From the NCBI GenBank assembly GCA_031275735.1, contig JAISOJ010000076.1, positions 1-64,000 of the forward strand: DNA of 64,000 nucleotides, read 5' to 3'. The notes beneath the pieces were generated by a model, which was given only the letters and a program-made list of their open reading frames with translations, did not search any database and was not told the origin of the DNA. The translations under genes were made by a program, and so were the position numbers. Positions 14,739-25,578 of this stretch are shown here, piece after piece. The DNA is from Dysgonamonadaceae bacterium. GTDB lineage: Bacteria > Bacteroidota > Bacteroidia > Bacteroidales > Azobacteroidaceae. Position 1 is the stretch's first letter; the number at the start of each line of letters is the position of its first letter.

Positions 14739-15071
14739 ATGACAGGTAATTTCTATCGTCAGGGACAATGTTATTCACAAGCCATGCGTCGGGTAAACGA
14801 CCCTGATTTTGCAAGTTTTGCCCAAGAGCGGATTATCCCGCACGGCATATACGATGTAAACGACAACACCGGATACGTTACTTTCGGCACAAGCAAAGAC
14901 ACTTCGGAATTCGTTTGTGACAACCTTTTGCGGGTATGGATAGAGCATCTGCAATACCGCTATCCGCAAGCCCATACCATTATGGTACTTTGCGATGAAG
15001 GCGGCTCAAATGCCGGTTCACATTATATCGTAAAACAGGATTTATGTAAATCCCTAAATGGAATTACCTGA
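14739..15071 (+). pseudogene. ISAzo13-family transposase remnant with internal deletion
   Basis: IIPHGIYDVNDNTGYVTFGTSKDTSEFV...MVLCDEGGSNAG core, then direct junction to the 3' end sequence (TCCCTAAATGGAATTACCTGATAAAAAC) also found at 21353. Confidence 0.75.
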
Positions 15072-15285
15072 TAAAAACATCTTAAATTACCAACTTATTT
15101 TTACTTGTTACTAACCTGAAAAACCTCGTTTTCCAAGCGCATGGAATGGAAAAGGTTTTTTACAGAGGAAAGAAATTGGCTGTGTTGAATCTTCCAACAC
15201 ACTTGTTGAATAAAATCACAAAATAAGGCGCTTAAAAAATTCGAATCCATTTATCTTTGAGGCAAAAACGTTTAAACCCATCGTT

Positions 15286-16899
15286 ATGCGACTAAGAGCC
15301 GGCAATGTATTCGTATCCTTGCTTGATTTACTGAAAGTAAAACATACAGGGAAATTCGCCGACAGGTATTTCAATGAGCATCCGCACAAATACAACCTGT
15401 TCGGCATTTCCAAAATGTTGTCCGACTATGGAATTGAAAACGCCGGAACAAAAATTGTCGATAAAGAAAAAGATATTTTCAACATCGAATGTCCGTTTGT
15501 AGCTCATTTCGGCAATGAATTTGTTGTCGTACACAAAATAGAACAAGATAAAGTGCATTATATCTGGAACGGAAAAAATATGTCTGTTCCGGTAGATGAA
15601 TTTATAAAGGCGTGGACAGGAATAATTCTTTTAGCGGAAACTACCAAATATTCTATCGAACCGGATTATAAGGAGCGCCGGGAAAAAGAACAATTGTATT
15701 TTGCTCAAAAATTTTTATTATTTTCAGCTGTTTGCCTGCTTCTGTCTATCGCTTATTTCACTCATTCTTTGTTTACAAATACCGGGTTGACATTGCTTTT
15801 GTTGACCGATTTAGCCGGCGTTTATATCTCTTATTTATTGATATTAAAACAATTAGATATCCAAAGCAAGTATGCGGATAAAATTTGTTCACTTTTCGGC
15901 AAAAACGATTGCAATACCGTTTTGGAAACTCCGGCGGCAAAATTGGGCGGCGTTTTCGGATGGAGTGAAATCGGCTTCGGCTATTTTACGGCAAACGCAT
16001 TCATTTTGCTCTTTTCCCCTGGTTGGACTTCTTATTTGGCGATAATAAACCTTTTTGCGCTTCCTTATACCGGCTGGAGCGTATGGTATCAAAAATTCAA
16101 AGCAAAACAGTGGTGTCCGCTCTGTTTGATTGTACAAATCCTGTTGTGGGTGATTTTTGCTTTGAATGGGTTGTTCGGATATATACAACTGCCTGCTTTC
16201 GATTGGGTTAGCTTGATCGATCTATTGACGGTCATTTGTATTTACGGAACAGGAATATTGAGCATCAACATTTTAGTTCCGCTGTTGAGCAAAGGACGGA
16301 TGGTAGAACATTTGAAACAGGAAATCAACAGTTTGAAAGCCAACGAAGAAGTTTTTAAAACCTTGCTTCAAAACCGGTCTTATTTTGAAACCACTCGATC
16401 CGATTCACAAATTCTTTTCGGAGACCCGGACGCCGGTTTACGAATCACAATTCTGACAAATCCTTATTGCAATCCCTGCGCATACATGCACAAACGAGTA
16501 GAGAAATTCCTGAAAGATACAAATAATACCGTCTGTGTACAGTATATTTTTTCGTCTTTCGACAGTAGTTTGGATTCCATCAATAAATATCTGATTGCAA
16601 CGTATTTAGAAAAAGAAAGAAATGCCGCTTTACAAATTTTCAAGGATTGGTTTGAAAAAGGAAAAACGTTGCAGGAAGCCTTTTTTAAAGATTTTCATTT
16701 GAATATAGACAGTCCGGCTGTTGAAACCGAATTTCAAAACCACGAATCGTGGAAAGCGAGAACGAAACTGCGGGCAACGCCAACGATTTTAGTCAACGGA
16801 TATCAGTTGCCGGAAAATTACCGGATAGAGGATTTACGTTATTTTACAAATTTGATAATCGACGTCGATAAGTTATTGCCGAAGGTAGTAAGGCAATAA
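15286..16899 (+). CDS. C39-peptidase-like domain / vitamin K epoxide reductase / thioredoxin-like fusion
   Basis: N-terminal ~130 aa C39-like (YNLFGISKMLSDYGIENAG..., CPFVAHFGNEFVVVHKI, VPVDEFIKAWTGIILL); TM region with CNTV and WCPLCLIVQ (VKOR); C-terminal TNPYCNPCAYMH and RATPTILVNGYQLP (DsbA-like). Confidence 0.8.
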   Translation: MRLRAGNVFVSLLDLLKVKHTGKFADRYFNEHPHKYNLFGISKMLSDYGIENAGTKIVDKEKDIFNIECPFVAHFGNEFVVVHKIEQDKVHYIWNGKNMSVPVDEFIKAWTGIILLAETTKYSIEPDYKERREKEQLYFAQKFLLFSAVCLLLSIAYFTHSLFTNTGLTLLLLTDLAGVYISYLLILKQLDIQSKYADKICSLFGKNDCNTVLETPAAKLGGVFGWSEIGFGYFTANAFILLFSPGWTSYLAIINLFALPYTGWSVWYQKFKAKQWCPLCLIVQILLWVIFALNGLFGYIQLPAFDWVSLIDLLTVICIYGTGILSINILVPLLSKGRMVEHLKQEINSLKANEEVFKTLLQNRSYFETTRSDSQILFGDPDAGLRITILTNPYCNPCAYMHKRVEKFLKDTNNTVCVQYIFSSFDSSLDSINKYLIATYLEKERNAALQIFKDWFEKGKTLQEAFFKDFHLNIDSPAVETEFQNHESWKARTKLRATPTILVNGYQLPENYRIEDLRYFTNLIIDVDKLLPKVVRQ

Positions 16900-17038
16900 G
16901 CAATAAATTAGCTGTTTATTGTTATAATTTCTACAATTTATAAATTTATTTAATTACTTTTGTATCATGAAGAAAATTAATTTGAAAGGGATTTCAGAAA
17001 CCCTGAGTGAAAAAGAACTGAAGAATGTAATGGGAGGT
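16864..17038 (+). repeat. Copy 1 of a ~175-bp duplicated block (3' tail of fusion gene, intergenic region, promoter and GG leader)
   Basis: Closely matches 19207..19380 by eye. Confidence 0.85.
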
Positions 17039-17227
17039 GTTGCAGTGTTAACTCTTAGCAAGAAAGAGGCTGATGGAACTGGAGGAGGTGGTGGCGGTAA
17101 TGGTTGTGGTAGTCCCACAGGAGGTACGTGCTCTGGAGCTTGTACTACTGCAATTTTAACTGATGGAACTTGTACATGGTACACCATTCCCGGAAGTGGC
17201 ACTTATTGTGCATGTAAAGAAAACTAA
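16967..17227 (+). CDS. GG-leader natural product precursor peptide (86 aa, Cys/Gly-rich core)
   Basis: MKKINLKGISETLSEKELKNVMGG leader followed by a core with 6 Cys (NGCGSPTGGTCSGACTTAILTDGTCTWY...YCACKEN). Confidence 0.85.
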   Translation: MKKINLKGISETLSEKELKNVMGGVAVLTLSKKEADGTGGGGGGNGCGSPTGGTCSGACTTAILTDGTCTWYTIPGSGTYCACKEN

Positions 17228-17312
17228 TAATTGAAGGAGAGGCTATCCAAAATATTTTTAACGTGTATGATATCAAGATATGTCTCTCTTAAATTTAAAT
17301 ACTTAATAGGAT

Positions 17313-18491
17313 ATGAATAAAATAAGACATTTATTATTTTTTCTTTTGTTTATTTTTAATGTAATACCGAATTTTAGCCGGAATAAGGTAATTCAATTAG
17401 AGTTGAATGGAAAAAAATACGATTATCTTTATATCCAGATAAAACATTTATTCAAAGAAAAAACTAAAATTGATGGAAAGTCTATAGATGGTTGTAAATG
17501 GATTTTTAGTGTGCCGGATTCCATAGCCCAAGAAGCTTGCTTTATTGAATTTCGCTATAAACAGAGCAATGATAAAATAGAGGATTTACGAGCATTGGGT
17601 TTTTTGGGAGTTATTAACGGCGACACTCTTAAAAATTATTATGTCAATTTTGATAATACCGGAGATACGATATTACTGCATGGAAATTTTTCAAAAATAG
17701 AAACGCATACAAGTTTATCATCATTTGAAAATGATAGTAGTGGAATTGGAAATTGGTATCGTGATTTTTTTATAGTTAATCCTCAAGAAAACAAGTATCT
17801 GATGGAACGGATGCAATCGCCGTTTTTCAGTTTCTTTAAAAACTTCAATGATAATAACATAAATTATAAAGACTATATTAACGAATACATTCAAAAAATA
17901 AGAGAAAATCCCGACTCAAAATATTATATTACAAATTTAGCCTCAACTTTAAGTTTCTATTTATCCACTCAAGATATAGAAGAATTGTACAGTTTTTTCT
18001 CTCCAACAATTAAAAATTCTTATTTTGGGAGAGAAGTTTACCGCTATTTTCTTTCTAAAAACCTATATCTCAATTCCAAATTTGAAAATAGTATTCTTCC
18101 TTCATGGGATACGGGAAATTTAGAGCCAATCATTCAAGATACGTTAAAATACAATTTAGTAATCTTTTCCGCATCTTGGTGTGGGCCTTGTATAAAAGAA
18201 ATACCTTTATTAAAAGAAGTTTATAGTGACTTACAGGAAAATTTACCCATGACTTACATTTCAATTGATGAATTAAAAACAGTTAAAGCATGGGGAAAGT
18301 TAATGCGAAAAGAAAATATCCCTTGGCGTAGCTTGTTGGCTACAAACGAAATAGATAAAATTAAAAAAAAATATTTTGTAGAAGGAATACCTCATACTTT
18401 ATTAGTCTATCCGGATAAACGAATTGAAATTTTAGATATTAGAATAAAAGAAAAGAAAGAAAAATTATATGTGTTAGCGGGTAAAAAATAA
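17313..18491 (+). CDS. TlpA-like thioredoxin-family protein
   Basis: Signal peptide; FSASWCGPCIKEIPLLKEVYSDL; EGIPHTLLVYPDK. Confidence 0.85.
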   Translation: MNKIRHLLFFLLFIFNVIPNFSRNKVIQLELNGKKYDYLYIQIKHLFKEKTKIDGKSIDGCKWIFSVPDSIAQEACFIEFRYKQSNDKIEDLRALGFLGVINGDTLKNYYVNFDNTGDTILLHGNFSKIETHTSLSSFENDSSGIGNWYRDFFIVNPQENKYLMERMQSPFFSFFKNFNDNNINYKDYINEYIQKIRENPDSKYYITNLASTLSFYLSTQDIEELYSFFSPTIKNSYFGREVYRYFLSKNLYLNSKFENSILPSWDTGNLEPIIQDTLKYNLVIFSASWCGPCIKEIPLLKEVYSDLQENLPMTYISIDELKTVKAWGKLMRKENIPWRSLLATNEIDKIKKKYFVEGIPHTLLVYPDKRIEILDIRIKEKKEKLYVLAGKK

Positions 18492-18723
18492 TGTATTTGT
18501 CTTTTAAAAGACTGATATCGAAACTTTTCTACCAAACTTTTTTATTCCGTAGGACATTGATTAGTTAATCAACAATCCTTTGCGGAATTTTCTTTTTTAA
18601 AAAGATTGCCGACTAAGAATAAATTCCTATTTTTGTAAATCGAATAAAAATAATCGTTTATGCAGAAATAAAAATAACATAATATTAATAAAGCATTTGT
18701 TTTGTTATTTGTGATTTCACGAA

Positions 18724-18821
18724 ATCGCCAATTGAATGAAACTTACACATAATAACACAAGTGAATGTCCATGGTTTAGGCATGGGCTTTCTTAGTTTGT
18801 GTAAGTTGGGTGTTTGGCGAT
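18724..18821. repeat. Interrupted long inverted repeat with nested stem
   Basis: ATCGCCA (18724-18730) / TGGCGAT (18815-18821) and AACTTACACA (18740-18749) / TGTGTAAGTT (18798-18807), inner GTCCATG/CATGGGC. Confidence 0.75.
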
Positions 18822-18877
18822 ACCTCAAAAAGCAAGTAAGATAAGTTCCATGCTTTGTTATTTTAAAACAATAACTT

Positions 18878-19198
18878 ATGAACAACATCCATATCGGTTC
18901 CATTATCAAGCAAAAATTGGCTGAAAATTCCATGACTATCAAAGATTTCTCGGAAAAAATCAATTGCGACCGAACCACCGTATATGATATTTTCAAGCGG
19001 AAGAGCATTGATGTAGAACAACTGATGCGAATCTCTCAAGCGCTCAAGTATAATTTTCTCGAAGAAGTCTATTTGAAACGAACAACCATAAACGTTCCAG
19101 CCTCTCAAAGAATTATTATCGGCGTCGAAATAGATAAAAGCGTCTTGCCGAAATTGGATTTACCCGATGCCTTTATCCTGCTGATAAAACCGGAATGA
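18878..19198 (+). CDS. Xre-type helix-turn-helix regulator
   Basis: IGSIIKQKLAENSMTIKDFSEKINCDRTTVYDIFKRKSIDVEQLMRISQAL. Confidence 0.82.
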   Translation: MNNIHIGSIIKQKLAENSMTIKDFSEKINCDRTTVYDIFKRKSIDVEQLMRISQALKYNFLEEVYLKRTTINVPASQRIIIGVEIDKSVLPKLDLPDAFILLIKPE

Positions 19199-19206
19199 CA
19201 ATCGCT

Positions 19207-19380
19207 GTCGATAAATTATTGCCGGAGGTAGTAAGTTAATAAGCAATAAATTAGCTGTTTATTGTTATAGTTTCTACAATTTATTAAAAATTTAATTACT
19301 TTTGTGTTATGAAGAAAATTAATTTGAAAGGGTTTTCGAAAACCCTGAATGAAAAGGAACTGAGGAATGTGATGGGAGGA
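19207..19380 (+). repeat. Copy 2 of the duplicated leader/promoter block
   Basis: Near-identical to 16864..17038, including a relic of the upstream gene's C-terminus (VDKLLPEVVS*). Confidence 0.85.
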
Positions 19381-19473
19381 GGGCCTATTTATTACAGGAA
19401 GGTTATGGATGACAACGAAGATGCAATTGACGGATATGGATTAGTAAGTGGTATGAGTAGATGTCCATGGTAA
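19309..19473 (+). CDS. GG-leader precursor peptide 2 (54 aa), not in the supplied ORF track
   Basis: MKKINLKGFSKTLNEKELRNVMGG-GPIYYRKVMDDNEDAIDGYGLVSGMSRCPW*; leader nearly identical to 16967 peptide. Confidence 0.85.
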   Translation: MKKINLKGFSKTLNEKELRNVMGGGPIYYRKVMDDNEDAIDGYGLVSGMSRCPW

Positions 19474-19543
19474 ATAAGTGTTTGATCGGACTAATGTAAA
19501 GTTGATAAAACAGAATAAGTTTTCACAAATAAAAACGAACAAT

Positions 19544-21049
19544 ATGAAATATTTTTTCGAATACATACTTATTTTTAGTTATGTCATCATAGCGTTAGCT
19601 TGTTCTCATTCAACAGAGCCGACAGGAAAAGCAACGCTTTCGGGTAAATTTTCCGGCCATTTTCCTGTCGGTCAAATATTTTCTGTAAAAATAACTGTTC
19701 CGAACTCTATTCTTGGAACATCAAAACAGGTGGATGAATATGAAACCCATTTAGAACCGGACGGTAGTTTTTCCCTTTCGATCCCCCTTTTTCATTCCGT
19801 TTATGCACTATTCTCAGTTAATGACAACGATTACGGAGCTTTTTTCTTGTCGCCGGATAAAGCAACCAAGATAGATCTGTCATTGAATGAAAAAAGTGAA
19901 ATACAAATCAAAATAATTAAAGGACAAGGATTGACGCCGGAAGATATGGATAAAATAAACAGGCAATTTATGGAGTTTATTCAAAAAGTATATGATCCGA
20001 ATAGTTTATGCGGATTACACTTCAACATGTCTCCTGACCAATACAAGAAATATATTCTGGAATGGACGGAAAAACAATTGTTAACTGTTAAAGATAATGA
20101 CGATTTACCGGAAAGTTTAAAACAATTGCAGTATAGGCAATTGAAATGGTACACTTTTATAAATTATTTATTTGGATATGAAGATATGGTTCGCTATTTG
20201 TATGAAAATCAGTCGGCTGTGAAAAATGAGAATGATACGGTTTTTGTGCCGGTAAAACCTGACAAATCGTATTATTCTTTCATTCGTTTTTTTGATATGA
20301 ACAATCCTCCGCTTTTCAATGCACCGGCTTATCCCGGAATATTCCGACAGATACTTGATAACAATGTTTTAAATATTCCCCGCATCGACAGTTGGCCGAT
20401 AACGGATTGGTTGAAAAAAGTAAAAGCAACTATGGCAGATTTGACAGGTTCGGATACCGGCCTGTTTTATGATATGTTAGCGTTACATGCCTATTGGAAA
20501 CAATTAGACGAAGAACTAAAGCCTTTTTCCGACCAACAAAAGGAAGATATCAAAATTTATTTCAAGAATCCGACTTTTGTTAAGTTTCTATTTACAGCAA
20601 ACGAAGAGACGGTAAAACAGGCAAAATTGTCCGGAATAATCAAAGAAACACCAGCCATCAATAAAGACAAACTGATGGAAGCCATTGTATCTTCCCACAA
20701 AGGAAACGTGGTAGTGGTTGATTTTTGGGCAACTTGGTGCGGACCTTGTCTGGATGCAATAAAAAAAATGAAAGGAATGAAAGAAGAATTACGGGATAAA
20801 AAGGTAGTTTTTATTTATATTACCGATCCTTCTTCACCTGCTGAACTCTGGAAAAAGAAAATATCCGGTATTGACGGCAAACATTATTATCTAACGGAAG
20901 AAGAAAAGGAATATCTAAGCGTTCACTTTCAAATAGATGTAATACCTACCTATTTGATATATGATTCCACCGGAACATTAAAACATAAATTGGACGGATT
21001 TCCGGGAACTGCGGAAATGCAGAAAATGATTGAAGAATTATTACCGTAA
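19544..21049 (+). CDS. TlpA-like thioredoxin-family lipoprotein
   Basis: Start at MKYFFEYILIFSYVIIALACSH (lipobox); VVDFWATWCGPCLDAIKKMKGM; IDVIPTYLIYDSTG. Confidence 0.87.
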   Translation: MKYFFEYILIFSYVIIALACSHSTEPTGKATLSGKFSGHFPVGQIFSVKITVPNSILGTSKQVDEYETHLEPDGSFSLSIPLFHSVYALFSVNDNDYGAFFLSPDKATKIDLSLNEKSEIQIKIIKGQGLTPEDMDKINRQFMEFIQKVYDPNSLCGLHFNMSPDQYKKYILEWTEKQLLTVKDNDDLPESLKQLQYRQLKWYTFINYLFGYEDMVRYLYENQSAVKNENDTVFVPVKPDKSYYSFIRFFDMNNPPLFNAPAYPGIFRQILDNNVLNIPRIDSWPITDWLKKVKATMADLTGSDTGLFYDMLALHAYWKQLDEELKPFSDQQKEDIKIYFKNPTFVKFLFTANEETVKQAKLSGIIKETPAINKDKLMEAIVSSHKGNVVVVDFWATWCGPCLDAIKKMKGMKEELRDKKVVFIYITDPSSPAELWKKKISGIDGKHYYLTEEEKEYLSVHFQIDVIPTYLIYDSTGTLKHKLDGFPGTAEMQKMIEELLP

Positions 21050-21082
21050 AACCTGATAGAAAACCGAAGATTCTGCAAAGCA

Positions 21083-21386
21083 ATTGATTAACCAACAATG
21101 CTTCGCGGAATTTTCGGTTTTAAAAAGATTGCCGACTAAAAATAAATTCCTATTTTCTCAACTTACACGCGCATGGCTGGGCGTCCCTTTTTATAATATC
21201 CAATTTGTCAAAGAACTCACCGATGATACAACAACCTCTACGGGATTGATTGTGTATTCATCTATTAATATCCAAAATTACCCTAGCAAAAGGAGGGTAG
21301 ATGATAAATTCAAAACTGATTTCAATCATCAAATCGTTTTTGACGACAAAATCCCTAAATGGAATTACCTGATAAAAACAACCTAA
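21083..21386 (+). pseudogene. ISAzo13-family transposase, C-terminal remnant
   Basis: FLFSQLTRAWLGVPFYNIQFVKELTDDTTTSTGL...VFDDKIPKWNYLIKTT. Confidence 0.75.
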
Positions 21387-21412
21387 ATTACTAACTTATT
21401 TTTTACTTGTTA

Positions 21413-22492
21413 CTAAAAAGATTGATACAATTTCAGCGTTTCTTTTGCCGTTTTTTCCCAAGAAAAATATTTTGACCGTTCTTTTCCCTTTTCAATTAAT
21501 TCGTTACGGAATGAGTGATGGAACATAACGCTTTTTATAGATTCAATGATGGAATCGACGTTGAAGGGGTCGAAATATACTCCGGCATTTCCGGCTATTT
21601 CGGGGAAACAACTGCTTCGACTCAATATAACAGGGCATCCGCACGTAAACGCCTCAAGGATTGGAATGCCGAAACCTTCGTAAACAGACGGATAAACAAA
21701 TGCCAAGGCCGAAGAATAAAGTTCTGCTAAAGATTCGTTGTCCGTAAAATAATGAATTACGTTTTTTTCAATTCTCAAAGATTTGAAAAAAAATTGTTCA
21801 TCCGGAGAAAAAGGTCTACCGGTTACAACCAATTTCAATTCATTATCAACCTGTAATAAAGAAGAAAAAGCTTTTGCCAGGTTTTCAAAATTTTTGTATC
21901 CGCCTCTTTCTCCGACAAATAATAAGAAGCGGTCGGGTAAATTCATCCTTTTTTCATAACAGGGTTTCAAACTGCATCCATGATAAATAACTCTTACTTT
22001 GTCCGGTTCGATATGAAGCATATCGACGATATCCTTTTTTGTGTTTTCACTCACGGCAATAATTTGTCCGGCTTTCTCTACTAGTATTTTCTTTCCTCTG
22101 ATAGTCCAATCGTTTTGCAGAAGTTTGACAGGAAATTTTTCATACGTCAGATCGTGAATCGTAAGAACAAACGGTTTCTTTTTTATATACTTTAAAAAAT
22201 ACGGATTATAATAGGTCGGATGAAAAATATCATAATCCGAATTAAAAAACTTTCTTTGTAAAAGATAATTAAAAAGTTGGATGATTGTTGTTCGTCCTTT
22301 GAATTTGTGATTGGGAAAGAATGTTCGGAAAGTTGTAATATCCAGGTTTTGAAGGTAATGGTTATTTGAAAAAACAATAGGTAAACTATAATGAATATCA
22401 TTTTTTAAAATCCGGATCAATTCGTAAAAGTATCTTGAAATACCTCCAAATTGCTGCATAGAAAAAATCTGATTGTCGTATAAAACTTTCAT
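21413..22492 (-). CDS. Glycosyltransferase family 1/4
   Basis: HDLTYEKFP, FVGERGGYKNF, ALAFVYPSVYEGFGIPILEAFTCGCPVILS. Confidence 0.93.
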   Translation of the reverse strand: MKVLYDNQIFSMQQFGGISRYFYELIRILKNDIHYSLPIVFSNNHYLQNLDITTFRTFFPNHKFKGRTTIIQLFNYLLQRKFFNSDYDIFHPTYYNPYFLKYIKKKPFVLTIHDLTYEKFPVKLLQNDWTIRGKKILVEKAGQIIAVSENTKKDIVDMLHIEPDKVRVIYHGCSLKPCYEKRMNLPDRFLLFVGERGGYKNFENLAKAFSSLLQVDNELKLVVTGRPFSPDEQFFFKSLRIEKNVIHYFTDNESLAELYSSALAFVYPSVYEGFGIPILEAFTCGCPVILSRSSCFPEIAGNAGVYFDPFNVDSIIESIKSVMFHHSFRNELIEKGKERSKYFSWEKTAKETLKLYQSF

Positions 22493-22726: not shown

Positions 22727-23902
22727 TTATTGGCCAATTAGCCTCATCACATTCGCAGGAGAGCGTTGCGTCGACAGTTCTTTTTTCATAAAATCCATGT
22801 AAGGAGCTACATGTTCAAAGAATTTATAGTATCCTTTGCACAAATAATTCAATTCTGCTTCTCCGGAATCAGTTTTTATAATCCGATTTTTGGGACATTC
22901 TCCATTGCAGGCAAATAGGAATTGACAGGCTTTGCATTGCGAAGTAAGAGAATCTTGCTTGTTGTTTCCAAATTTAATTTGCTTATCGGAATATATCATT
23001 TCGGTAAGCGTTTGGTTTCGAATATTTCCTAATTTATATTCAGGATAAACAAAATGGTCGCAGGCGTATACATCTCCGTTAAACTCCATTACGCCGGCGT
23101 GTCCACATGTTTTTGCCAGTGTACAGATACAGGGTTGCTCCCCTACCCAATTTGCTAATGTGGAATCAAAATACTGTATATAAAACGTTCCAACATCTTT
23201 TCGTACCCATTCGTCAAAAATAGCAATCAGGAAATCTCCCCATTTTTCTGAAGGTACATTCCAGATAGCTAACTTTCCATCAATTAACTCAACGATGGGC
23301 GAAAATTGAATATAGTGGCAATCAATACTCTTGAAAAAGTGATAAAATTCAAGCGGATAATCTGCATTATAGTCATTTACAACTCCCATAGCATTAAATT
23401 CTACATTATGCTTTTTGAGGAGTTCAATGCCTTTCATCACTGAAAGAAAAGTCGGACGGTTATCTTTTGTTCGCCGATAGATATCCTGACAATGCTGAGG
23501 TCCGTCAATAGATATTCCTACAAGGAAACCATTCTCCTTAAAAAATTTACACCAGTCGTCGGTGAGTAATGTTCCGTTTGTTTGAATACAATTATCAATT
23601 GGCCTGCCTCTTCCGTATTTTCGTTGAAACTCCAATGCCTTCTTGAAGAAGTTTCGGTTTCGCATTAGCGGTTCTCCTCCATGCCATGTAAACAAAACTT
23701 CATTCATGCTTTGAGATTGAATATATTGTTCAATAAACCGTTCTAAAATCTCCTCGCTCATCAAATAATTGCTTGTCTGAGGATAGAGATTTTTCTTTCC
23801 CAAATAATAACAATAATTACACCGAAGGTTGCATAAAGCGCCTACGGGTTTCAACATCACATATAAAGGATGAGCAAATGGGGCAATCGCATTCATGTTC
23901 AT
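22727..23902 (-). CDS. Anaerobic sulfatase-maturating enzyme (radical SAM/SPASM)
   Basis: CNLRCNYCYY (CxxxCxxC); FTWHGGEPLM; C-terminal SPASM cysteines; adjacent to two Ser-type sulfatases. Confidence 0.92.
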   Translation of the reverse strand: MNMNAIAPFAHPLYVMLKPVGALCNLRCNYCYYLGKKNLYPQTSNYLMSEEILERFIEQYIQSQSMNEVLFTWHGGEPLMRNRNFFKKALEFQRKYGRGRPIDNCIQTNGTLLTDDWCKFFKENGFLVGISIDGPQHCQDIYRRTKDNRPTFLSVMKGIELLKKHNVEFNAMGVVNDYNADYPLEFYHFFKSIDCHYIQFSPIVELIDGKLAIWNVPSEKWGDFLIAIFDEWVRKDVGTFYIQYFDSTLANWVGEQPCICTLAKTCGHAGVMEFNGDVYACDHFVYPEYKLGNIRNQTLTEMIYSDKQIKFGNNKQDSLTSQCKACQFLFACNGECPKNRIIKTDSGEAELNYLCKGYYKFFEHVAPYMDFMKKELSTQRSPANVMRLIGQ

Positions 23903-24006
23903 TCTTTAGCCCTTGTTTATAAAGACTCGTTGACTTGCTGTCCTGCAAAAGATAATTGCCATTACGATAAGCATAATAGATTGATTTTAGAAGTAGCCTT
24001 AATTTT

Positions 24007-25578
24007 TTATGGTATAACTTTATATTCAGAATTAGGCTCCATCATTTTTGCGTTTATCTGCTTTCTCCAATTATGAAGCATTTCACGCAGTTTGTTCACT
24101 ATCTCGGGTTCAGAGGAAACGAGATCGTGTTGCTCTTCCCTGTCATTTTTCAGATTAAACAGTTGAACTGTATTGTTTTCATAATATTCCAATAATTTAT
24201 AATCGCCACAACGCACGGCTCCTCCTGGACTTTGCATGCCATGGTTGCTGTAATGAGGAAAATGCCAGAATATGGCATCCCGATCAATTTTAGTTTCACC
24301 TTTCAACAAAGGTGTAAAACTTATCCCGTCTGATTGCAACTCTGGTTTAGTCTTTATTTTCAACATATCTAAAATAGTTGGGAAAAAGTCGGGTCCTGTG
24401 ACAGGTACATCGCAAACAACCCCTTGCAGTCCTTTGCCCGGCCATTTTACAATCAACGGCACTCTGATGCCTCCTTCGTAAAGCCAGCCTTTACCGCCGC
24501 GTAGCGGCAAGTTGGAAGTAGAAAAAGCTTTATCCAATTTATTATCTTGAATTACTCGATCAGGACTGTAAAAATTAGCAGCCGACATTCCTCCATTGTC
24601 AGAATAGAAAATAACAATAGTATGATCGTCGATGCCCCATTTTTTTAGTTCGTTAAGTACCCTGCCAAAACTTTCATCCATACTTTCAACCATACTCGCA
24701 AATTCTACATTATCCTGATGTTGCTTAATTTTAACAGTACGGTCGGAAAAAATACGGTATCCTTCATGATCTCGGTACGATTTTTCATCAAAAGGCGTAT
24801 CCGGATCACCTTCCAGTACATAAGCATAATTTTGATATACAATCATTTGATCCGATTTTTTTTTATATTTTTCGACTAAGTCAGGGCGTCCTTCAATGGG
24901 ATCGTGTACCGCAAAATGAGACAGATACAAGAAGAATGGTTTGTCTTTATTCTCTTCGATGTATTTCAGCGCTTCTGTAGTCAGGCGATCGGTAAGATAT
25001 TCACTTTCCTGCCCATCTTTTAATCCCTTCAATCCATAAGGTGAAAAATATCCTTTGTTTGGCCAACCTTTATTCCAGCCTGAGGGTACATGCAAATCAA
25101 AACCTTGTCTTGCCGTTGAAGCTGAATCTTCTCCCAAGTGCCATTTTCCGAAAATAGCTGTATGATATCCGTTTTCTTGAAGCGTCGTTGGAATGGTCGG
25201 TTTATTATAAGGTAAATGTTGATTAATCTGTACGTTTTTTAATTTCTGAAATGGGAAATCAAGCCTGCCCGGAAGCCAATCGGTCAAATTAATTGAAGCA
25301 GGATATTTCCCCGTTAAAATACTTGCGCGCGAAGGAGAGCTTACATGACATGCGGCGTAAGCATTAGTAAATCGAACTCCTTCTTTTGCAAAACGGTCGA
25401 TGTTGGGCGTTTCATAAAAACGGCTACCATAACATCCTGTGTCGCTCCAACCCAGATCGTCAACCAGAAAGAAGACGACGTTCATAGGTTTTTCTTCTTT
25501 TGGTTTGCTTTGCGCCTGCCCTGTTCCTGTACCTATTAATGCAACGGCTGCTGTTGATACAAATAACTTTGGATTCAT
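24007..25578 (-). CDS. Sulfatase (Ser-type)
   Basis: NVVFFLVDDLGWSDTGCYGS; SSPSRASILTGKYPA signature; secretion signal. Confidence 0.93.
   Translation of the reverse strand: MNPKLFVSTAAVALIGTGTGQAQSKPKEEKPMNVVFFLVDDLGWSDTGCYGSRFYETPNIDRFAKEGVRFTNAYAACHVSSPSRASILTGKYPASINLTDWLPGRLDFPFQKLKNVQINQHLPYNKPTIPTTLQENGYHTAIFGKWHLGEDSASTARQGFDLHVPSGWNKGWPNKGYFSPYGLKGLKDGQESEYLTDRLTTEALKYIEENKDKPFFLYLSHFAVHDPIEGRPDLVEKYKKKSDQMIVYQNYAYVLEGDPDTPFDEKSYRDHEGYRIFSDRTVKIKQHQDNVEFASMVESMDESFGRVLNELKKWGIDDHTIVIFYSDNGGMSAANFYSPDRVIQDNKLDKAFSTSNLPLRGGKGWLYEGGIRVPLIVKWPGKGLQGVVCDVPVTGPDFFPTILDMLKIKTKPELQSDGISFTPLLKGETKIDRDAIFWHFPHYSNHGMQSPGGAVRCGDYKLLEYYENNTVQLFNLKNDREEQHDLVSSEPEIVNKLREMLHNWRKQINAKMMEPNSEYKVIP

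Follow-up and report, generated by a model that had tools for sequence, protein, structure and literature searches.

A locus in a termite-gut Bacteroidales bacterium predicted to mature exported disulfide-bonded peptides with a VKOR fusion that carries a degenerate C39-like domain

The bacteroidetocins, class IIf peptides (Coyne et al. 2019, PMC6671954) whose target is BamA (PMC8546649), are rated here as the closest described system to the one under study. They are Bacteroidota peptides with paired cysteines (four in bacteroidetocins A and B) and double-glycine (GG) leaders of 15-16 amino acids, their mature forms are 42-53 amino acids long, and they are encoded in loci in which a transmembrane (TM) protein, the peptide, a thiol oxidoreductase and a C39 ATP-binding cassette (ABC) exporter follow one another. 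Deletion of the TM protein weakens the toxin, and Bacteroides are said to lack general disulfide machinery (PMC6671954). A locus that we rate, by its sequence, as a variant of such class II or bacteroidetocin-like disulfide peptides occupies positions 15286-21049 of the window, the whole stretch of 64,000 nucleotides that was analysed (contig JAISOJ010000076.1 of assembly GCA_031275735.1, contig C31 of our draft genome G000, 2.43 Mb and 76% complete, from a termite-gut bacterium). It consists of a gene for a C39-like/VKOR/DsbA-like thioredoxin fusion, here called FUS, followed by two units that each pair a GG-leader peptide with a TlpA-like protein (PEP1 with TLP1, PEP2 with TLP2); all of these open reading frames (ORFs), which an initial annotation of the stretch had named, are present.

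In relatives the order FUS-PEP-TLP-PCAT, where PCAT is the C39 ABC exporter, parallels the order of the bacteroidetocin loci. The two systems differ in their leaders, which are 24-27 amino acids long in the window's clade, in their cores, which have 62 and 30 amino acids in the window, and in the number of cysteines, which is mostly six in FUS-linked cores. They also differ, where the comparison is by published description only, in the membrane protein: the bacteroidetocin TM protein has been presented as an unknown protein of five TM segments, and no C39-like/VKOR/thioredoxin fusion has been reported. If that protein were a VKOR relative, the two would be one system, of which the window locus would be the larger form; L130 and L133 (L-numbers are our labels for the loci of the relatives compared), which were examined for a FUS relative made of TM segments only, hold a broken PCAT and an unrelated protein instead.

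The reading that we favour, with a probability of about 0.6, is that the locus serves to mature exported disulfide-bonded GG-leader peptides, most probably bacteriocin-like, which would be oxidised before export; that the gene set serves the maturation of disulfide peptides at all is, judged by comparison between genomes, very probable. We infer the following order of steps. The C39-like domain of FUS would bind the GG leader of the precursor, and FUS would oxidise the core in the cytoplasm with the leader still joined; a separate PCAT with an active C39 domain, together with HlyD, would then cut after the Gly-Gly and export the peptide, and the TlpA-like protein would work on the envelope side as an isomerase or reductase, or in protection. 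Disulfide formation would then be a genuinely leader-dependent step of maturation, in which one enzyme could serve hypervariable cores with many cysteine scaffolds. By analogy with the described peptides, the products may be antibacterial.

The gene set recurs across the phylum. FUS-like genes occur in 27 of 199 relatives, in 26 of 393 genomes of the order and in 64 of 396 genomes of the phylum, counts that come from whole-genome searches and take in some C39 exporters and VKOR-only matches. The genera that carry FUS include Bacteroides, Parabacteroides and Paraprevotella in addition to protist-associated termite symbionts, and the nearest named relatives with the locus are Candidatus Symbiothrix, Candidatus Azobacteroides and Dysgonamonadaceae records, the first two being associates of termite gut protists. 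Linkage was evaluated in 69 distinct FUS genes, identical proteins having been removed, that are followed by at least 600 nt of sequence. An ORF with a GG leader and a core of at least four cysteines lies within 350 nt downstream of 48 of these genes, compared to 9 of the 277 further large ORFs of these loci that served as controls. The linked cores have two (1 core), four (9), six (34), seven (1) or eight (6) cysteines, so that the number is even in 50 of 51 and is four, six or eight in 49 of 51, and these even numbers point to disulfides. The initial annotation had proposed a secreted, disulfide-bonded family of GG-leader peptides encoded beside VKOR fusions, and had named a lack of leader homologues beside such fusions in other genomes as the finding that would speak against it; the linkage and the even cysteine numbers favour the proposal, and the lack that it named clearly does not exist.

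The gene next after the peptide gene in FUS loci usually encodes a TlpA-like protein. Of roughly 19 relatives with sufficient flanking sequence, about 13 also have a C39 ABC exporter a few kb further downstream, frequently accompanied by HlyD. The full order in L083 is FUS-PEP-TLP-glycosyltransferase-like-PCAT-HlyD, and in L203 a PEP-TLP2 unit is joined directly to PCAT and HlyD. The draft genome itself holds PCATs on contigs C34 and C64 and, in two pieces, on contig C59, full-length ones among them, and PCATs with an intact DCGP motif occur both in this genome and in the loci of relatives. The earlier remark that no transporter lies nearby is therefore right within the window, and does not carry over to the relatives or to the rest of the genome.

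FUS (15286-16899, plus strand; Pfam C39 8e-07, VKOR 2e-14, Thioredoxin_4 2e-10) contains, in order, a degenerate C39-like domain (about residues 8-118), a TM helix (TM0), a VKOR core (170-293), a further helix (TM5) and a DsbA-like thioredoxin domain (374-518). It has the cysteines of a VKOR-thioredoxin protein, namely the loop pair (C201/C209), the CxxC of the VKOR core (WCPLC, C277/C280) and the CxxC of the thioredoxin domain (CNPC, C395/C398), and in 20 of 20 FUS sequences the four VKOR cysteines and the thioredoxin CxPC are invariant. In these respects FUS resembles the known fusions of VKOR to thioredoxin or DsbA, of which PMC12453122 cites a Synechococcus example and which likewise join a four-cysteine VKOR core with its CxxC to a DsbA-like domain in one chain; it departs from them in the N-terminal C39-like domain, in TM0 and in the inverted charges of its loops.

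The C39-like domain has kept the fold and lost the chemistry. Profile searches of the PDB match it to PCAT1 at 1.6e-06, in addition to the Pfam match, and an AlphaFold2 (AF2) model of FUS with a mean pLDDT of 81 matches leader-bound LahT150 (6mpz, a double-glycine protease structure with its leader in place) with a TM-score of 0.70 and BdbD (3eu4) with a TM-score of 0.67. Among 60 FUS sequences, however, the column of the catalytic cysteine holds cysteine in only 2 and mostly lysine or asparagine, that of the catalytic histidine holds histidine in 1 and aspartate or glutamate in 40, and that of the catalytic aspartate holds aspartate in 6. Since the catalytic cysteine and histidine are gone, the domain is not a protease, and a role as leader peptidase is rejected.

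Fold retention combined with the loss of catalysis suggests a leader reader. The positions of the leader that contact the C39 groove (PMC6363468) match the consensus of the FUS-linked leaders, and in both window leaders these positions are hydrophobic. Both have the hydrophobic residues at -12, -7 and -4, the glutamate at -8 and the Gly-Gly at -2/-1 that are characteristic of GG leaders, and a profile of 47 leaders shows a hydrophobic residue at -12 in all 47, glutamate at -8 in 39, a hydrophobic residue at -7 in 32 and at -4 in 45, and Gly-Gly in all 47. We therefore propose, on the basis of sequence comparison and the model, that FUS may be a leader-binding, disulfide-forming enzyme whose dead C39 domain reads the leader. 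The C39-like domain (CLD) of type I secretion exporters (PMC6363468) offers a parallel, as it too has the C39 fold without the catalytic cysteine and is thought to recruit substrate, although the CLD belongs to an ABC transporter and the domain described here is fused to a disulfide-forming membrane enzyme. For the complete mechanism, a phylum-wide, leader-guided formation of disulfides in the cytoplasm with the dead C39 domain as reader, we consider the odds to be even.

The order of oxidation and export depends on which way FUS lies in the membrane. VKOR-thioredoxin fusions are generally periplasmic, and if FUS had this ordinary orientation then the peptide would be exported and cut first and oxidised in the periplasm afterwards, and the C39-like domain would either dock onto the exporter or be a relic. 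The TlpA partners, which carry export signals, are in keeping with this order, as is the thiol oxidoreductase that bacteroidetocin loci also encode (PMC6671954). The FUS proteins, however, have lysine and arginine almost exclusively on the membrane side where the VKOR active site lies (a mean of 14.45 versus 0.82 per protein, in 60 of 60 FUS), the opposite of the pattern in seven VKOR-thioredoxin proteins of the same phylum that have no C39-like domain, and throughout the set they have one TM helix, TM0, more than an ordinary VKOR. In two genomes, moreover, a C39-VKOR gene that encodes no thioredoxin domain (8601-9979 in L071, 1183-2493 in L118) is directly preceded by a gene for a stand-alone thioredoxin that has a CPHC site like that of DsbA and lacks a signal peptide. 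By the positive-inside rule, the charge pattern together with the signal-less thioredoxin would place the VKOR active site in the cytoplasm, and disulfides would then be made before export. Oxidation after export would also leave the C39-like domain with a leader already detached by the time the domain could use it. We regard the cytoplasmic orientation of the active site, the least certain step of the proposal, as probable, and oxidation in the periplasm as unlikely. An inverted VKOR is reportedly found in Aeropyrum pernix, where the topology, in work attributed to Hibender and colleagues (2017), is said to support disulfide formation on the cytoplasmic side; unlike FUS, that protein is archaeal and has neither a C39-like domain nor a linkage to leader peptides.

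Several points weigh against oxidation before export by a FUS-centred system. The positive-inside rule has exceptions, and the loops on the active-site side have more residues altogether (about 91 versus 28), although the density of lysine and arginine still differs about fivefold once loop length is taken into account (about 0.16 versus 0.03 per residue). A disulfide made in the cytoplasm must survive in a reducing compartment. At the distance used, a qualifying peptide is missing for 21 of the 69 FUS genes, and because all of the FUS genes are related and come from one phylum, the counts describe a pattern and are not independent trials. Finally, no exporter is found beside the window locus in this draft genome, which is 76% complete.

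Disulfide peptides are usually viewed as being oxidised after export by general enzymes, whereas here a dedicated enzyme appears to accompany hypervariable cores. A literature search that did not extend to most subscription papers turned up no account of a VKOR fusion associated with GG-leader peptides. If this reading is right, then the combination of a C39-like/VKOR/thioredoxin gene with a downstream ORF of even cysteine number would be a genome signature for many unannotated disulfide peptides, the system might serve as a tool for the production of disulfide peptides in the cytoplasm, and the ability of a dead C39 domain to read leaders could be tested directly.

PEP1 (16967-17227, plus strand) has a 24-amino-acid GG leader (16967-17038) that scores 17.7 bits against bacteriocin_sig (cut-off 15.7), with no TIGR04149 match listed, and a core of 62 amino acids with six cysteines at spacings of 7, 3, 9, 11 and 1. 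PEP2 (19309-19473, plus strand) has a leader that matches TIGR04149 (26.7 bits, cut-off 25) and a core of 30 amino acids with one cysteine; both core compositions had been given correctly. The PEP1 core belongs to a six-cysteine group with the pattern C..C-x3-C..G-x-C..C-x-C, members of which adjoin FUS in several genera and relatives of which occur in eight other loci, and a Pfam search with the PEP1-type core gave no match. In a weak profile search, the best E value of which was 0.043, the spacing resembles that of CS-alpha-beta peptides, mostly scorpion toxins and defensins, and defensin-like bacteriocins such as actifencin (PMC11195462) are similarly six-cysteine bacterial peptides. The AF2 model of the PEP1 core, which is of low confidence, is nonetheless all-beta, with three strands and no helix, where a CS-alpha-beta peptide would link a C-x3-C helix with a C-x-C strand, and Foldseek found no match to it; a CS-alpha-beta or defensin fold was accordingly rejected for PEP1-type cores, and membership in the defensins is not claimed. 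Peptides just 3' of FUS in L067, L070 and L168 have a C..C..CC..C..C spacing like that of inhibitor cystine knots, a further kind of scaffold within the family.

The TIGR04149 family name implies that such leaders belong to substrates of a radical S-adenosylmethionine (SAM) maturase, in which case the VKOR gene beside them would be incidental, and PEP2 and its relatives do score above the cut-off of that family. The window locus has a single radical SAM gene nearby, at 22727-23902 on the minus strand, but its product is a radical SAM/SPASM anaerobic sulfatase maturase that adjoins its sulfatase (the pair spans 22727-25578) and is unrelated to the peptides, so that modification of the peptides by radical SAM chemistry was rejected. 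The linkage of VKOR to the peptides throughout the phylum and the even cysteine numbers, which point to disulfides, make this reading very improbable. The initial annotation had noted no radical SAM gene nearby; the gene is there, although none that modifies peptides lies in the locus.

PEP2 had been taken for a second disulfide peptide, which its core does not appear to be. The end of that core, GYGLVSGMSRCP, resembles YAILTGLSKCP and YALLTGLNMCP, the ends of six- to eight-cysteine cores in L203, L048 and L049 that sit beside close relatives of TLP2. The match spans only 11-12 residues; 0-1% of shuffled sequences did as well, and several targets were tried. The other reading frames hold no cysteine-rich alternative core. 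Given this tail match, with its support from shuffling, and the orthology of TLP2, the PEP2 core is likely a cysteine-rich core from which the middle has been deleted. The PEP1 unit looks intact, and the PEP2 unit looks to have kept its promoter, leader and TLP2 while losing most of the cysteine-rich core.

TLP1 (17313-18491, plus strand; Thioredoxin_8 7e-11) is a TlpA/ResA-like thioredoxin with an N-terminal hydrophobic signal and a WCGPC site, and its orthologues adjoin FUS in L041, L042, L045 and L094. TLP2 (19544-21049, plus strand; Thioredoxin_8 4e-11), for which the ATG at 19544 is the best start, is a TlpA-like lipoprotein with the lipobox ALAC and a WCGPC site, and it has orthologues at 49-63% identity in L048, L049, L079 and L203. 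On these comparisons the two are separate old families.

The initial annotation had explained the two units by duplication followed by core diversification. Its observation of nearly identical leaders and upstream DNA holds: about 185 bp are common to both units at 89-90% identity (16853-16944 versus 19196-19287 and 16948-17037 versus 19290-19379, each at 90%), the likeness ends sharply at the Gly-Gly codons, and no strong copies of the block besides these two were found in the draft genome. The second copy also retains, as was noticed, a relic of the last 14 codons of FUS (19198-19239, plus strand), which reads TIAVDKLLPEVVS and a stop, compared to IIDVDKLLPKVVRQ and a stop at the end of FUS itself, and related terminator and insertion-sequence (IS) scraps lie 3' of both TLP genes. 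If one unit had recently been duplicated in tandem here, and its core had then diversified rapidly, these features would be accounted for. The leader DNA of PEP1, however, is no closer to that of PEP2 (89%) than to most leaders of other species (82-92%), and the upstream block, at 88% between the window units, stands only slightly above the best cross-species value of 83%. TLP1 and TLP2 fall into separate families with orthologues elsewhere, the order FUS-TLP1-PEP-TLP2 is found in L041 (with TLP1...PEP-TLP2 recurring in another Symbiothrix genome), and the tail of the PEP2 core matches another existing core family. We thus consider recent duplication quite improbable. Judged by the leader likeness across species, the separate TLP families and the order in L041, both units appear to be old; their conserved ends are shared and may have been homogenised, or the middles between them may have been exchanged.

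For the second of these possibilities, the promoter-leader blocks and the terminator/IS scraps would have provided the homology for the exchange of core and TLP between units. The likeness stops exactly at the Gly-Gly and resumes at the terminator/IS scrap, and relatives have multi-unit arrays (FUS-PEP-Trx-FUS in L106, two tandem peptides in L060) and FUS fragments (a FUS tail relic in L079, an internally deleted FUS in L110). The relatives are nevertheless mostly fragmented metagenome-assembled genomes in which some FUS fragments are contig ends, and the argument comes from the comparison of loci. An exchange of middles is on balance a tentative explanation, somewhat short of even odds.

From left to right, the region contains an ISAzo13 relic, FUS, PEP1, TLP1, a hairpin with a transposase scrap, a helix-turn-helix (HTH) gene, the FUS-end relic, PEP2, TLP2, a strong hairpin and another ISAzo13 relic. 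An inverted repeat, CAATAAA-n7-TTTATTG (16902-16922, plus strand; fold z -2.6), directly follows the FUS stop codon and is kept both in the second copy (near 19245-19265) and in related loci. A promoter-like TAnnTTTG box, which we take to be of the Bacteroidota -7 type, lies on the plus strand 12 nt 5' of the ATG of PEP1 (16955-16962) and of PEP2 (19297-19304); almost every leader in the termite clade has it at -9 to -12, and in control ORFs it was found within 35 nt in 30 of 413.

A terminator-like hairpin with a T run follows TLP1 (18544-18598, plus strand; fold z -2.9), and a strong terminator-like hairpin follows TLP2 (21060-21121, plus strand; -30.4 kcal/mol, z -7.5). A further repeat of 74 bp (18560-18633 versus 21083-21156) comprises the downstream half of each of these hairpins and ISAzo13 transposase scrap. 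Three ISAzo13-family remnants, all in one direction, flank and split the locus: an upstream relic on the plus strand (14739-15110, NF033519 positions 181-285) that has a 94% repeat of the end of the element at 21349-21403, a scrap on the plus strand (18595-18640) with a 91% match to the relic at 21.1 kb, and that downstream relic (21117-21410, plus strand, NF033519 positions 313-386). The gene between the two units (18878-19198, plus strand; HTH_26 1.8e-07) encodes a Cro/C1-type HTH protein that is possibly a regulator; a related HTH gene adjoins a TLP2 fragment in L195, and another is close to a FUS fragment in L057.

Just past the window locus is a glycosyltransferase gene (21413-22492, minus strand). 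Glycosyltransferase-like genes also lie between TLP and PCAT in L042 (6323-7177), L091 (13593-14429), L083 (13527-15104) and L090 (7297-9218), the last of which has a LanC-like gene there too. A further exporter cluster of the draft genome, L063 (contig C64, 58000-77900), combines a PCAT and a partial HlyD with a radical SAM gene, a LanC-like gene and several that resemble glycosyltransferases. Downstream of the thioredoxin-less C39-VKOR gene of L071 is a small ORF that has neither a Gly-Gly nor cysteines. Bacteroidia bacterium MS495-7 carries on its contig C9 two identical FUS-PEP-TLP-PCAT copies in opposite orientation (L043 and L044), possibly an amplification or an assembly artefact.

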